Below the pieces are notes generated by a model. That model ran no database searches, was not told where the DNA came from, and was given only the letters and a program-made list of their open reading frames with translations. Both the position numbers and the translations under genes were made by a program. A stretch of DNA of 64,000 nt from Anaerolineae bacterium (GTDB taxonomy: Bacteria > Chloroflexota > Anaerolineae > Anaerolineales > E44-bin32), in NCBI GenBank assembly GCA_011192015.1, contig DUET01000064.1:1-64000 (forward strand), written 5' to 3'. Position 1 is the stretch's first letter, and each line of letters opens with the position of its first letter. Below are positions 1,456 through 13,486 of this stretch, piece after piece.

Positions 1456-2400
1456 ATGAAACGACTGCTGCTACCACTCATCCTGCTGTGTTTGGTTCCC
1501 GCCTGCACCGGTGGCGAATCCAACCCCGCATCTACCGCCTCCTCTGCCAATCCCCAACCAATGGCAACCCGTACAGCATCGATCATGACCTCGACACCAA
1601 GCCCCACCGAGACACCGCCACCAACACCGCTTCCGACCGCAACCACCACTCCATTGCCGGACACCTGGCAGGATTGGCCTGTGATCCCCTTCGTCTCATC
1701 CCGCATGGCTGAGATCTACCTGCAGGGCATCGAGGCTGGCAACAATCCCCTCGCCTTCTCGAAGATCGGTGATGGCGAGATCTCGACCAATTGGTTCTTC
1801 AGCCCCTTTGACTACGGACCCCAATTCTACGATCTGGGACCCTACAGCGAGCTGCAGGCCGTGATCGATGCGTTTGCAGGTTCCTTCGCACGACAGAGCA
1901 TGGCCGCCAGGCCCGGCTTCGGAACCGTTCAGGTGCTGGATCCCATGGCGGCTGATTACTCCGTTTGCGATTATGGGGAGACGCCCCTGGAGTGTGAGCT
2001 TCGCCTGCATCAGCCCTCCTTCGCCCTGATCTCGATGGGAACGAGTCAATGCTGGAGGGCGGAGGAATTCGAGACCGGTATGCGCGAGATCCTTCGCATC
2101 CTTCTCGAACACAGCGTGGTGCCCATCCTGAGCACCAAAGGGGACAATCTGGAAGGCAATCACCGCATCAACGAGATCATCGTGGAGTTGGCGCAGGAAC
2201 ATCAAATCCCCCTGTGGAATTTCTGGCTGGCCATTCAACCCCTACCGCGGCATGGTCTGCAGCTCGACCTCGAACACCTCACCTGGGCGACGACGGACCT
2301 GGACAATCCGCAGATCATGCAATGCGCCTGGCCTTGGAGAAATCTGACCGCGCTGCAGGCTCTGGAGGCGGTCTGGAAAGCCGTTCGCTCGCAGCCTTAG
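1456..2400 (+). CDS. Lipoprotein with a degenerate SGNH/GDSL-hydrolase-like domain (probable pseudoenzyme)
   Basis: The protein has a lipobox (LVPAC, Cys17), a Pro/Thr/Ser-rich linker to about residue 70, and a folded domain to the end, so it should sit on the outer face of the membrane. The domain is collinear with the C-terminal domain of the protein at 10801-12288: both have an (A/Y)FSKxGD block, a CxxGETPLxCExRL block and an ALxAxWK/R-like end. The enzyme residues differ. The block I Ser is Gly107 here, the GTND block is GTSQ (195-198), and the DGVHP block reads DLEHL. It therefore probably binds rather than hydrolyses. The second ATG at 1456 is preferred because GGAG at 1447-1450 is correctly spaced; 1453 is the alternative. 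Confidence 0.75.
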   Translation: MKRLLLPLILLCLVPACTGGESNPASTASSANPQPMATRTASIMTSTPSPTETPPPTPLPTATTTPLPDTWQDWPVIPFVSSRMAEIYLQGIEAGNNPLAFSKIGDGEISTNWFFSPFDYGPQFYDLGPYSELQAVIDAFAGSFARQSMAARPGFGTVQVLDPMAADYSVCDYGETPLECELRLHQPSFALISMGTSQCWRAEEFETGMREILRILLEHSVVPILSTKGDNLEGNHRINEIIVELAQEHQIPLWNFWLAIQPLPRHGLQLDLEHLTWATTDLDNPQIMQCAWPWRNLTALQALEAVWKAVRSQP

Positions 2401-2506: not shown

Positions 2507-4087
2507 TCAACTCACAGATTGAAGGAAGTAGTCTGGATTGAGCGGTTCGCCCGTGGCTGAGATCACATGTTGGCTCCACACCTCGGTAGCCCCGCTCTTG
2601 ATGATGCGTTCTCTCATCCACTGTCCGGCTTCTTTGCGCCCCACGATCCCGCCTACGTCACGGCGCATATGCACACGGAACTGTTCTGCAACCATCCTGC
2701 CCAGTTCATAACTCTGGTAGTAGACCGGCGCCAGAGCGATGTGATACTTCGCCGCCCAATCCGGAGCCATTCGATCAGGTCGTGGCAGAAATTGATAGCG
2801 CTCAGCGAGGTCCCACCAATAGGCATCCAACTCGCTGTCCGGATCGGCGTAGAGTCGCCTCTCGAAGTGGAGCATCACCAGGCTCCAGCGAGTAAAGACC
2901 AGATTCCCGGCTCGTTCGCGCGCCTTACCCGCCTCGGCGTAACGCTTCAGTTCCTCACCGGTAAGCCCCAGGACATGCTCCAGCCATTCGATGTCGCGCG
3001 TCAACGCCCCCATGATGATGGCCAAACCTTCCGTAGTCAGACTGTGCGCTGGAGTGCGCAGCATCCACGGGAGTTCGGGGTCGATGTACTTGTCGTAAAC
3101 CGCATGCCCCAGTTCATGCAGCAGCGTGCTCATCCAGCGCTCGTTGGCCTGCAGATTGTTCAACGTGCGCACGTCTCCCTCTCGATCGATATCGAGGCAG
3201 AAGGCATGCTGGTTCTTGCCCGGCCGTGGATGAAGGTCCGAACCATCGATGATGTCGGCCACATCCATGCCTAGGTCGTCGTAGGTCTGCAATGCCAATT
3301 GGACCAAATCCTTCTGCTCGAAGAGCGCCGCCGTGTCGACATCGCTCCACTCCGGCGAGGCCTGGAAAAAACGATTCTCGAAATGCCAGGGTCGAAGCTG
3401 ATTGATCTTGACGCCGAACCTCTTCGCCCGAGCCGCATCGATTCCTTCCTTCAACCGGGCAAATGGCTGGTCGGTTGCCTTTTCCAGTTCATCGTAGGTC
3501 TTCAACAACGCATCCTCGTCGATCTCGCTGAGTGCGAGCATGCGCGCGAAATGATCCCGGTATCCCTGCGCTCTCGATGCTGCATTGCGCAGCTTCGCCA
3601 ATGCGCGCACTTGATCCGCCACCAGCGCGCCTACTTCCTTGCTCGCCAGCCAGGCCGCTTTCACCTCCTCCGAATCCCGGCTCGTGCGCAAGACGTCATC
3701 CAATTCGTTGTCGCTGAACCGCCTGCCGCCGATTTCGGGTCGGTGGTTGTAGAAATGCCCTCGCACCTCGGCTTGCAAGGCCGTCACCTGCTCGATCGTG
3801 GCCTCATCCTGCTGTGCCTTAGCAGCAGAGAGGTACAGGCGTTCGATCTCCCGCGCCAGGATGGGATCTTTCGCCGCCCCCGATTCATTCAGCCGTTTGG
3901 CGATCGCAAATCGCTCCGGATCGGACCAGAATCGCATCAACGCCGTCTGCGCTTCTTTCTGGCGTTGATTGGCCTTTTCGGTCCCCATTGTCGCCGCATC
4001 CCACATTGCCAGCGCGTAGACCTTGCGCAGAGGCTTGAATTGCGCTTCGATCTCGCGCGCGAAGGTTTCGGCTTCGTTACTCATCAT
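2507..4087 (-). CDS. Gluzincin zinc metallopeptidase, M2/M3-like (peptidyl-dipeptidase/oligopeptidase family)
   Basis: A mostly helical protein of 526 residues with no signal peptide, so probably cytosolic. The zinc site is HELGH at about residues 324-328, with a candidate third ligand Glu353 in LTTEGLA, 29 residues after the first His; this spacing fits gluzincins (clan MA). The LRNAASRAQGY segment around residue 195 and the long helical N-terminal half resemble M2 (ACE-like) and M3 peptidases, which cut short peptides. Which of the two families is uncertain. The start at 4087 has a good GGAGG-AAGAG ribosome site; an in-frame extension to 4303 has no support. Several ORFs on the + strand here are shadows. 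Confidence 0.75.
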   Translation of the reverse strand: MMSNEAETFAREIEAQFKPLRKVYALAMWDAATMGTEKANQRQKEAQTALMRFWSDPERFAIAKRLNESGAAKDPILAREIERLYLSAAKAQQDEATIEQVTALQAEVRGHFYNHRPEIGGRRFSDNELDDVLRTSRDSEEVKAAWLASKEVGALVADQVRALAKLRNAASRAQGYRDHFARMLALSEIDEDALLKTYDELEKATDQPFARLKEGIDAARAKRFGVKINQLRPWHFENRFFQASPEWSDVDTAALFEQKDLVQLALQTYDDLGMDVADIIDGSDLHPRPGKNQHAFCLDIDREGDVRTLNNLQANERWMSTLLHELGHAVYDKYIDPELPWMLRTPAHSLTTEGLAIIMGALTRDIEWLEHVLGLTGEELKRYAEAGKARERAGNLVFTRWSLVMLHFERRLYADPDSELDAYWWDLAERYQFLPRPDRMAPDWAAKYHIALAPVYYQSYELGRMVAEQFRVHMRRDVGGIVGRKEAGQWMRERIIKSGATEVWSQHVISATGEPLNPDYFLQSVS

Positions 4088-4376
4088 CTCTGCTCTTCCT
4101 CCAGGAAACGCCGATTTCGTCTGGGGGGCAGTATAGCAGAGGCTGTGCCCTTCGCACCCAAAGGGTTCTCGAAAATGCCGACATCCTCCTGGGGAAATGA
4201 GGAGGCAGTACGGCGCATATCCTGTTAAATCGGATACGAAGCGCGGCATGCCCTCCGGCGCCGGGTCCCTCGCTCTGCGGGTTCCGTTCCTCCCGTGTCT
4301 CATTTCGACCTGAGGCTGCTGCCGCCCTGCACTCCCAAAGCAAGGAAGGGATGATAAGAACTATGGGGAAATCGAC

Positions 4377-8212: not shown

Positions 8213-9340
8213 CTATTGATCCTGACAGAAACCGGCACCGGCATGCGTTAACCCAGGCACCCACTTGCAATCTGCACGCGCGTTACAATCAACCTGTCCC
8301 AAACCACTGCATGGCGGTTGATCGCAGTTGGGGAACATCGCTTCTCCTGAAAACACAACCTCCTGGCTCTCGAGGTCGACCAACTCCACCAAACCCATGG
8401 GAGAGGTTTCGATCCTGGGCCCGGAACAATGCAGAAAGAGCGGACGCTGTGGGTTGAGTTCGCACTCGTAGGTATTCCCTTCGGCACGCGCTTCGAAACC
8501 GTCCTGCGGAGGCTCAGGGAACTCAAAAGTGATCATCATGCTCTGATTGCCGATGCAGCCCAGGGCATAGATCTCGGGCTTCTCCATAACAAACTGCCCG
8601 CAGGTCCCCTGGAAATCGGTCGAGAATGTCTCGACGTGGGAATATTCACCCGGCACCAGGTTGTTGAGAACGGCCACGCGCCAGAAGTAATCCGTACAGT
8701 CCTGCAGGAAATCGATGTTGGTCTCGAAGCTGGTCCATGGTCCCTGGCCGGAGCCGGAAAGCACCGTCGTTTGGAAATCCGGCTGTTCAGAGACCTGGAA
8801 CTGATAGCCCTCCGGAAGACATCCGATTTCCGGGAAGTCCCAATCCAACGGTGGAGAAGGATCCGCCACCACCTCGCCCAGGATGGGATCGACAAGCTCG
8901 GGAATCTCCGGGATGGAGGCGTCACAGATCGGCCCGGTCCAGAACCACAGCGCGGGTGATATCGGACCACTGCTCCCGCCTCGAACGCCGAACACGCGCC
9001 ACTGATACATGCTGTTCGTCTGCAGAGTTTGTGTGAGTGTCCACGTGGTTAGGAAACCTGTGGTCTGTTCGGTGACCACGCCCGGATTGTTGAAATCCCC
9101 CTCGGGCGCGATCTCGAGGGTGAAGAAATCCGGCCCGCACGGTTCCGGGTAAAACCATTGGAAGGTCGGTTGCAGACTGGCCACCAGCTAGCTGGATGGC
9201 GAAAAGACCTGGGGCGCTGCGAGCGGAATCGGGGGGCAGGGCGTCGCGGTGGGTGTGGGTTCCGGAGTTGTGGGACCACAGGCGCTCAAACAAGCCGCCA
9301 CCACCAGAAAAATCCCTACAATTGTAAAACGCCTGATCAT
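8213..9340 (-). pseudogene. Lipoprotein with fibronectin-like repeats, interrupted by an in-frame TAG
   Basis: The start codon at 9340 has a strong GGAGG site and encodes a lipoprotein signal (LSACG lipobox), then a Pro/Thr linker ending APQVFSPSS. The next codon is TAG (9188-9190), and the same frame continues as LVASLQPTFQWFYPEPCG with no other break for about 324 codons to 8213. The two pieces plainly belong together: P-x-x-x-LVASLQPTFQW is a standard entry into an Ig/fibronectin-like module. Later parts hold further W-x-x-x-T-x-x-L strands and a Cys-rich tail (CNARADCKW...GFC). Possibilities are a nonsense mutation, a sequencing error or readthrough. TAG is an ordinary stop for other genes here (for example coaBC), so genome-wide recoding is unlikely. 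Confidence 0.75.
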
Positions 9341-10800: not shown

Positions 10801-12288
10801 TTACTCGTTAAGGATGACCATTCTCCAGATCGCATCCAGCGCTTGCAGGGTGAGTAAGTTGCGCACCGGAATCCCATAGCTCAGGTTCTCAGAGGTGAAG
10901 TTGGCATTGTCCTGATCCGGCGCCATCGCAGGGTGCACACCATCCGAGCCGATTCCCTGGTTGGGAAGATCCTGCAGCGCGGCCCAGTAGTCCATCAATG
11001 GAATGCCATATTCCTGGGCAAGGTCGATCAGAACGCCGTTGAATGCCAGCACGCGTGACTCCATTCCAGACCAATGCAGCGGCGGAATGGTGCTCACCAG
11101 CGGGATGATGCCCTCTGCCAAGCTGATCTCAATGATCTCGCGCATCGCGGATTCATACATCTCGATGGGCATGCCCGGCAGATCGTTCGTGCCCAACATG
11201 ATCACGGCCACCGACGGGTTCACGAGCCGGTACTCACAGGCCAGCGGTGTTTCGCCTGGCTCGCATTTGTCAGGATCGCTCATCCTCGCATCGAGGACAT
11301 GCAAGCTCGACCAACCGACCTCGGCCGCCAGGCTTGCATTGGCAAAGGAGGTATGCGTCCGCGCCCATCCGGGAAAATAGTAGTCGATGACGCCCTGCAG
11401 ATAGGCATACTCGTGCAGTTCATAGCGGCGCGTGCCCAAGGGATATAGATAGCCCGGATTGACCGTGATGCTGTCGCCAACCTTGGAGAAGGCATTGTCG
11501 TCGTTCCCGAGACTCAGCCCGAGCTGGTATACCTCGCGCAGGCTTTCGGAAACTCCGGAGACGTAGGCGTAGCTGCTCGGCGGCGTGGGAACGGGAGTCG
11601 TCGTCCCATCTCCCGAGCCTGGATCTTCGTGGTCCGGGACGTCGATCTGGAAGACGAGCGGGATCTCCGGCAGATCGATGTAGATGTCCAACCATTCGGC
11701 GCTGACCCATCCCCACTCCGTGAACGGTGTGCGCACTTCCATCCACTCGTTGTCGGAGGTGCGACCGGTGATCGTAAGCGGGGTCAGGGCGGCCAGGGTC
11801 CCGATCACGTCCGCGTCCAGATTCGGCGCTGTCCGCAATCTGAGACCTCCCCCAGCATAGATCACCTGCCCCGTGTAGGCCCATTCCGATTCCGGCAGGC
11901 TCTCGGCTGGAGAATCCCCCTCAGGAACCAGGATCACGTCTCCCGGTGCGATCATGCCGCCTTGAGCCATGTCCGGATTGGCCTGCACGATACTTTCGAC
12001 GCTCGTGTTGAAACGCCGGGCGATGTCCCACAGCGTGTCGCCGGATTGGACGGTGTAGGAGAGGGGAGGCGGTTCGGTCGGGGTTGGACTGGGTATGGGT
12101 GACGGCGTTCTGCTGGGAATCGTCGTGGGAGGTGCGGTTCCTTGGGGAACGGTCGTGCTTTCGTCCCCATCCGAGTGCATCAAGGAGGGGAAAAGGTCGC
12201 CTCGCAGCGAATACACCAAAACAAAGTTGGCGATGCATAACACGCCGATGGCGATGATCATGCCCGTTTGCAGCTTGCGCCTTTGCAT
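10801..12288 (-). CDS. Membrane-anchored LysM-SH3b-SGNH hydrolase
   Basis: A 495-residue protein, probably extracytoplasmic. Order: N-terminal membrane anchor (about 9-28), Pro/Thr linker (45-76), LysM (77-122, YTVQSGDTLWDIARRFN), an SH3b-like domain (140-200, LRLRTAPNLDADVIGTL...WGWVSAEWL), then an SGNH domain (240-495). The catalytic set is complete: Ser273 in FSKVGDS, Gly and Asn368 in LGTNDL, and Asp449/His452 in DGVHP. LysM and SH3b point to cell-wall binding, so the enzyme may deacylate a wall glycan, but the substrate is inference. The ATG at 12288 is preferred (GAGG 9 bases away). It is the active counterpart of the protein at 1456-2400. Confidence 0.85.
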   Translation of the reverse strand: MQRRKLQTGMIIAIGVLCIANFVLVYSLRGDLFPSLMHSDGDESTTVPQGTAPPTTIPSRTPSPIPSPTPTEPPPLSYTVQSGDTLWDIARRFNTSVESIVQANPDMAQGGMIAPGDVILVPEGDSPAESLPESEWAYTGQVIYAGGGLRLRTAPNLDADVIGTLAALTPLTITGRTSDNEWMEVRTPFTEWGWVSAEWLDIYIDLPEIPLVFQIDVPDHEDPGSGDGTTTPVPTPPSSYAYVSGVSESLREVYQLGLSLGNDDNAFSKVGDSITVNPGYLYPLGTRRYELHEYAYLQGVIDYYFPGWARTHTSFANASLAAEVGWSSLHVLDARMSDPDKCEPGETPLACEYRLVNPSVAVIMLGTNDLPGMPIEMYESAMREIIEISLAEGIIPLVSTIPPLHWSGMESRVLAFNGVLIDLAQEYGIPLMDYWAALQDLPNQGIGSDGVHPAMAPDQDNANFTSENLSYGIPVRNLLTLQALDAIWRMVILNE

Positions 12289-12373: not shown

Positions 12374-13486
12374 TCACGGACAAATCCGCTGTGCCTTGAA
12401 GAACCAGCCCGGGTGATGGCCCACGGGCGTGTCATGCAGGGTGAGTTCCCAGACGATCTCCTTTTCGGGGGTTACTTCGAAGACCACCGCTTCGTCACGA
12501 TCCTCGAGCACGCCCACGATCAGCGTGTTCCCGTTGGGCAGGCGATCGGCGTCGCGGCAGGTCCTGAAATCGTCACGATGATACTCCCAGATCGACTGGT
12601 CTGCGGCACGGTCGATCTCTACCACCTGATAGGGCGCTTCCCACTGCAGGCACACCAGCACATGTCCATCCGGAAGCAGTTCCGGTTCATGAGGATCCAA
12701 ACCTCGAGGGTCGTCAGTTTCGTAAAGGTCGGTCCAGTCGATCTGCCAGACCACATTGCCCTGCACATCCAATTCCACCGTGAGTCCGAAATTGCGCAGG
12801 CTGACCAGGGTATTGCCGTCGCGGATCCGGGTCACGCTATTGATGTGCGTCCATCCCTGGCGATCGATCGAAACGTAGGGCGCCGAGTTGAAGTGGTCCT
12901 GCGCCCTCCACGACCAAACGAGATTCCCACTCGGATCGACCTGCTTCACCTGGACGTCGTCCCGCTTGTCGCCGTTGCCGAAGACATACAGCGTGTCGCC
13001 GCTGGGCAGCCGATCGGCATCGTGCGATACCTGCGGATCGGTATGCGACCACACGATCGTTCCCATGCGGTCGATCTCATACACGCCCGAGCTGGAAAGC
13101 GTGAAGAGGATGTTGCCGTTGTCCAGTAGCTCCGCATCCAATCCTACAGGTGCGCCATGGACCAGTTCTTGGGGAATGCTGTATTGCCACACGATCTCGC
13201 CCGCCATGTCCACTTCGAATAAGCGCATCCGCTTATCATCGTGGACATCCGAGAGCAGCGTGGTTCCATTGCATGCCAGGGCAGGATCGTAGACACGCAC
13301 ACAGGGTTCACCGGTGATGCAAACACGCTGCAAATTCGCCGTTGCCTGCGGAGGCGAGGATGAGGTGGATGGCATCGGAGTTCGTGTCGGAGGTCTTTCA
13401 AGCAGAGGGGTTGGTCCAGGACCACATCCCTCGAGGATGCCAACGCATACGATCATGACGAACGGCAGCAATTTGGCTGGCGACAT
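12374..13486 (-). CDS. Arylsulfotransferase-like beta-propeller lipoprotein
   Basis: A 370-residue lipoprotein (lipobox ILEGC near residue 21). It is made of propeller blades of the type G-x-I/V-V-W, seen as GEIVWQYSIP, GTIVWSHTDP, GNLVWSWRAQ, GNVVWQIDW and KEIVWELTLHD, alternating with LPNGNTL/LPDGHVL/LPSGDTLY turns. The VSHDADRLPSG and TCRDADRLPNG segments match the ASST (arylsulfate sulfotransferase) family, in which a His in such a loop is sulfated. Whether it is catalytic cannot be said. It should be anchored outside the cell. GGAG at 8-base spacing supports the start. Confidence 0.8.
   Translation of the reverse strand: MSPAKLLPFVMIVCVGILEGCGPGPTPLLERPPTRTPMPSTSSSPPQATANLQRVCITGEPCVRVYDPALACNGTTLLSDVHDDKRMRLFEVDMAGEIVWQYSIPQELVHGAPVGLDAELLDNGNILFTLSSSGVYEIDRMGTIVWSHTDPQVSHDADRLPSGDTLYVFGNGDKRDDVQVKQVDPSGNLVWSWRAQDHFNSAPYVSIDRQGWTHINSVTRIRDGNTLVSLRNFGLTVELDVQGNVVWQIDWTDLYETDDPRGLDPHEPELLPDGHVLVCLQWEAPYQVVEIDRAADQSIWEYHRDDFRTCRDADRLPNGNTLIVGVLEDRDEAVVFEVTPEKEIVWELTLHDTPVGHHPGWFFKAQRICP

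Follow-up and report, generated by a model that had tools for sequence, protein, structure and literature searches.

At positions 1456-2400 of the window, the whole 64,000-nucleotide stretch of Anaerolineae DNA analysed in this work, a gene encodes a putative lipoprotein related to SGNH hydrolases with glycine in place of the catalytic nucleophile, which raises the question of whether the protein is a decayed enzyme or has kept a role of its own. The original prediction regarded it as a dead copy of a LysM-SH3-SGNH enzyme encoded 8 kb away. The 314-aa open reading frame and its intact orthologues in other genomes confirmed that the gene is real, and Gly107 is not a sequencing error because its codon is GGC and Gly is likewise encoded at this position in relatives from other genomes. 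Most relatives carry an N-terminal lipobox of regular form; the window's protein has a lipobox-like motif that is imperfect, with Pro at -2. Directly downstream, on the opposite strand, Pfam detected a metallopeptidase of the M2/M32/M3 kind (2507-4303, -), and an ORF further along the window (8213-9184, -) had weak matches to fn3/Ig-like families.

Table 1 Features of the nucleophile-less lipoprotein gene and of its Ser-type relative in the window.
Feature	Position	Strand	Basis
Nucleophile-less SGNH-fold protein, putative lipoprotein, 314 aa	1456..2400	+	ORF and intact orthologous genes elsewhere
Signal peptide with lipobox-like LVPA-C (Cys17)	1456..1506	+	Sequence
Low-complexity Pro/Thr/Ser linker	1507..1656	+	Sequence
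SGNH-fold domain (predicted), C-terminal	1657..2397	+	AlphaFold2 model and structure matches
Gly107 (codon GGC), at catalytic Ser/Cys position	1774..1776	+	BLASTP, alignments, codon reading
Cys171/Cys180 pair, invariant across the Ser, Cys and Gly types	1966..1995	+	Alignment
Ser197 (GTSQ), at oxyanion Asn position; Asn in orthologues	2044..2046	+	Motif alignment
Lys228-Gly-Asp230-Asn231-Leu-Glu233, a motif characteristic of the large Cys clade	2137..2154	+	Alignment
Asp271-Leu-Glu-His274, retained Asp/His dyad	2266..2277	+	BLASTP, MAFFT alignments
LysM-SH3-SGNH protein, Ser-type relative with intact Ser273, Asn368, Asp449 and His452	10801..12288	-	BLASTP, Pfam

An AlphaFold2 model of the C-terminal domain, built from seven related sequences (pLDDT 87.5, pTM 0.88), matched TesA (1ivn; Z 14.7 over 165 residues), OatA (13.8) and PatB of C. 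jejuni (13.7), and the model of a relative with Cys at the nucleophile position (L039; pLDDT 90.7, pTM 0.91) had similar structural matches. The domain is thus confidently predicted to have the three-layer SGNH fold. The TesA match started at model residue 31, equivalent to TesA residue 1, and residue 40 (Gly107) would fall on Ser10 if the match were ungapped. The protein shares with the SGNH/GDSL superfamily (TesA, OatA, PatB, acetyl xylan esterases) the fold over this domain and the block V Asp-x-x-His, but differs from it in lacking the block I Ser, replaced by Gly, and the block III Asn, replaced by Ser197, and in scoring below the Pfam Lipase_GDSL_2 gathering cut-off (14.8 bits against 32.9).

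In the LysM-SH3-SGNH protein, by comparison, LysM, SH3_3 and Lipase_GDSL_2 all exceeded their Pfam cut-offs. BLASTP confirmed that its SGNH domain is shared with the 1456-2400 protein (36% identity, E 8e-44), and the residues numbered beforehand in the two proteins (Ser273, Asn368, Asp449 and His452 in the enzyme, Gly107 and Ser197 in the lipoprotein) were correct, with Gly107 aligned to Ser273 and Ser197 to Asn368. The proposed loss of the catalytic residues holds for the nucleophile and for the Asn but not for the Asp/His dyad, previously thought to be replaced by LEHL: this motif had been read out of register, and in BLASTP and two MAFFT alignments Asp271-Leu-Glu-His274 lay on Asp449-Gly-Val-His452. 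The altered oxyanion residue is genuine but private to the window copy (GTSQ), as all five other clade members that are intact at this site read GTNQ. The Lys228-Glu233 motif (Table 1) was absent from the LysM-SH3-SGNH enzyme.

Nor is this enzyme the nearest relative. The closest sequences were lipoproteins (44-58% identity), most with Cys at the nucleophile position (GDC), three of which are encoded in the window's own genome on a contig (C81) other than that of the 1456-2400 gene (C70). Although the two window proteins belong to one domain family at the identity given above, and LysM-type and lipoprotein-type genes are also neighbours on C81 and in G001 and G042, the 1456-2400 gene grouped with the Cys lipoproteins, in the Cys-nucleophile branch of the tree described below and outside the LysM clade, and its descent as a dead copy of this enzyme is not supported. 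When the full-length LysM-SH3 protein was searched for in eight genomes (the seven with a Gly or Asn member of the clade described below, plus G713), full-length matches came only from the window's genome, where a second LysM-SH3-SGNH protein is encoded on C81; elsewhere the query was matched by its SGNH part only. Because full-length matches were confined to one of the eight genomes, the clade of the 1456-2400 gene does not conserve a pairing with the LysM enzyme, and we consider it very improbable that the protein is a dead copy that regulates or decoys this enzyme. Beside the LysM-SH3-SGNH gene, an arylsulfotransferase-like lipoprotein is encoded at 12374-13486 (-; Pfam Arylsulfotrans, E 7e-18).

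Of 396 genomes from the class Anaerolineae, 106 contained relatives of the protein, and 20 of the 21 positive genomes in a sample of the phylum belonged to this class, which also contributed nearly all of the 153 aligned domains. The nucleophile position was occupied by Cys in 93 of these, by Ser in 57 and by Gly in 3. In a first set of 67 domains, the Cys group had an invariant Cys and a Thr-Lys-x-Asp-Asn-x-Glu motif conserved at 89-98%, with looser conservation of the canonical Asn, Asp and His. For 115 domains, a quick tree that left out the nucleophile column and had no inferred root required five changes of nucleophile, at least four of them forced by well-supported branches, and united the Gly rows in one clade (support 99) inside a Cys-rich group; on this unrooted tree, the direction of change was likely from Cys to Gly. 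A Ser-type domain was also nested in the Cys-rich group (L129:3521-4723, +, G309), possibly as a reversion, and several Ser- and Cys-type paralogues were encoded side by side in L115 (G385) and L116 (G357).

Only two other Cys residues were conserved in the Cys members, both present in Ser and Gly members too, and for this reason an unpaired role of the nucleophile-position Cys appears likelier than a role as one half of a disulfide. Cys171 and Cys180 of the window's protein would probably form a disulfide with each other. Selenocysteine at the nucleophile position was also discarded, as a single in-frame TGA was present in the best matches, in a copy (L163, G635) that reads GDC with a TGC codon, and a gene considered as a further Gly-type member (L123, 8351-9421) was found to read GDC. 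Plant acyl-ACP thioesterases have a different fold from that of TesA. They have Cys where TesA has Ser (PMC3524773). In the open-access literature we found no paper on an SGNH hydrolase with a cysteine nucleophile, nor any on an SGNH pseudoenzyme in connection with the catalytic serine, which does not prove that none exists.

An extended search of 400 genomes of the order, followed by motif reading, detected Gly at the nucleophile position in six genomes (the window's, G033, G023, G711, G654 and, as a partial sequence, G025) and Asn in one (G518), with a patchy distribution over three families (f1, f8 and f11). Intact Gly/Asn members had in common the Lys-Asp-Asn-Glu motif, the Asp and the His, a Glu before the His that is a mark of the Gly clade, and a Gln that follows the Asn/Ser. 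Because six Gly members and one Asn member occur in three families and show signs of purifying selection, the 1456-2400 protein is best classified as a member of a conserved nucleophile-less subfamily, not as a single decayed copy.

Selection could be estimated for G023/G025, the only closely related Gly pair, in which the comparable part of the domain (145 codons) had a dN/dS of 0.24. In the same two genomes the ratio was 0.04 for Cys copies encoded in the operon described below and 0.11 for its MBOAT (membrane-bound O-acyltransferase) gene, and linkers evolved fast in the pairs compared (about 0.4 to 0.7). These ratios indicate that the Gly clade is under constraint, weaker than that on its Cys relatives. 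The roughly sixfold excess over the operon Cys copies also fits partial relaxation and, together with the additional loss of Asn in the window copy and the patchy presence of Gly/Asn members, could be taken to mean that the Gly branch is a relaxed duplicate slowly heading for loss, its conservation reflecting recent ancestry or inertia of the fold. Against such decay, which seems to us decidedly unlikely, stand reading frames that are open across three families at 51-58% identity, end branches of the Gly rows near the median length of the tree, a domain dN/dS well below 1 and the conservation of clade-specific residues. Since the absence of the nucleophile is conserved and the one measurable pair is under purifying selection, a kept role that does without the normal nucleophile is likely.

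This role might still be catalytic, with Asp271/His274 activating water or an acceptor hydroxyl as general base, and the nucleophile's part taken by the substrate or by a different residue. The conservation of Asp and His in intact Gly/Asn members, and of Asn in the orthologues, is compatible with such an enzyme, and the clade-specific Glu before the His and Gln after the Asn hint at a site that was remodelled and not abandoned. We nevertheless regard it as rather unlikely, because the studied SGNH relatives work through a Ser acyl-enzyme (PMC12148441) and because position 107 is either Gly or Asn, with no common replacement.

The genomic context of the Cys relatives suggests a different kind of role. 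Clustering of neighbouring genes and profile searches at many loci revealed a recurrent gene order comprising a small lipoprotein, an MBOAT, a protein of about 370 residues (SGa), one or more Cys-SGNH lipoproteins, a carrier protein and an AMP-dependent ligase. The MBOAT matched the Pfam family (E 3e-18) and, below the cut-off, the DltB model (E 1e-62; 212 bits against 375); the ligase had an AMP-binding match, and its best models were fatty acyl-AMP or long-chain acyl ligases, again below their cut-offs. The predicted acyl carrier protein, of 83 residues, passed the Pfam PP-binding cut-off, and SGa is a Ser-type SGNH protein with invariant Gly-Asp-Ser and His in 14 sequences. In operons of other orders, Ser-type lipoproteins replace the Cys type.

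Among 61 genomes, strong matches to the operon MBOAT and members of the SGNH family (E below 1e-20) were found in exactly the same 27, within 6 kb of each other in 21, although these genomes are kin and a nominal probability would overstate the evidence. At loci picked by search rank, and hence as weaker evidence than the adjacency in the 61-genome set, a core operon gene was found no more than 6 kb from 34 of 63 Cys genes and from 19 of 43 Ser genes. The window's genome has the operon, with one MBOAT of this kind, on C81, and the 1456-2400 gene lies outside it on C70. A single Gly/Asn orthologue was seen inside an operon, that of G711, where it lies between two Cys paralogues and is followed by the carrier and ligase genes on a contig that begins within the operon. 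Of the eight genomes checked, seven had the MBOAT: G713, which has no Gly/Asn member, and six that have one. The Cys paralogues and the MBOAT/carrier protein/acyl-AMP-ligase operon are better candidate partners for the 1456-2400 protein than the LysM enzyme.

By analogy with PatAB and Dlt, such an operon probably encodes a carrier-dependent system for envelope acylation. In this scheme the acyl-AMP ligase would charge the acyl carrier protein, the DltB-like MBOAT would carry the acyl group across the membrane, and the extracytoplasmic SGNH proteins, both the membrane-anchored Ser type and the Cys lipoproteins, would transfer it to a polymer of the envelope. In the sub-branch of the 1456-2400 protein the Cys would have been lost while the fold, the Asp/His dyad and the Lys-Asp-Asn-Glu motif were kept; the protein would no longer form an acyl-enzyme and may instead bind the donor or acceptor of the acyl group, or a paralogue that is active. 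We therefore favour, with moderate confidence, a non-catalytic member of a Dlt-like acylation system acting as an accessory or regulatory subunit, even though the position of the window copy outside the operon, the single Gly/Asn orthologue seen inside one, a dN/dS compatible with partial relaxation and a dyad that could support nucleophile-free catalysis count against it. More tentatively, and with less conviction, we propose that Anaerolineae possess a Dlt-like system of their own in which Cys SGNH lipoproteins carry acyl thioesters and the Gly branch acts without a covalent intermediate, for instance as a polymer-presenting subunit.

In PatAB and Dlt, the MBOAT passes the acyl group via a tyrosine to the Ser of its SGNH partner, and this partner in turn acylates the polymer (PMC12148441). 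The Anaerolineae operon resembles Dlt (DltA, DltB, DltC, DltD and DltX; PMC12148441) in combining extracytoplasmic SGNH proteins and a DltB-like MBOAT with a carrier and an adenylating ligase, but its ligase resembles fatty acyl-AMP ligases, its MBOAT falls below the DltB cut-off, and it has additional Cys-SGNH and small lipoproteins. An MBOAT with SGNH partners is also shared with PatAB/AlgIJX O-acetylation, and two SGNH-like proteins have separate roles in alginate acetylation (PMC4148444); those systems use acyl-CoA with no dedicated carrier (PMC12148441), whereas the Anaerolineae operon has both carrier protein and ligase. An inactive SGNH-fold domain is known in Oskar, an animal germ-plasm protein that has lost the catalytic Ser, as has the 1456-2400 protein, but also the His, which the latter retains in an unrelated setting (PMC2848206).

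Well-studied bacteria are already known to acylate their envelopes through MBOAT-SGNH pairs, using acyl-CoA or D-alanyl carriers as donors, and an operon combining its own ligase and carrier with Cys-type and nucleophile-less SGNH lipoproteins would widen this scheme in an abundant but poorly cultured class. We found no description of the operon in open-access literature on DltB/MBOAT in Chloroflexi or on SGNH proteins with MBOAT or acyl-AMP ligase, which is no proof of absence. Ser, Cys, Gly and Asn at one position of one fold offer a natural series for exploring what purpose the nucleophile serves, and lipoproteins unnamed by current family models gain a testable role.

The small lipoprotein of the operon (for example L045:1815-2213, +) is roughly 130 residues long, has conserved Cys positions and ends in Cys-Gly, and had no match in a Pfam search. 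It was also encoded in the L116 stretch, in which, as in that of L115, none of the genes was assigned as MBOAT, SGa or ligase. In G046, a 435-aa ORF (L033:1459-2763, -) has an N-terminal part similar to this small lipoprotein followed by a Cys-SGNH domain, as if two parts of the operon had fused.
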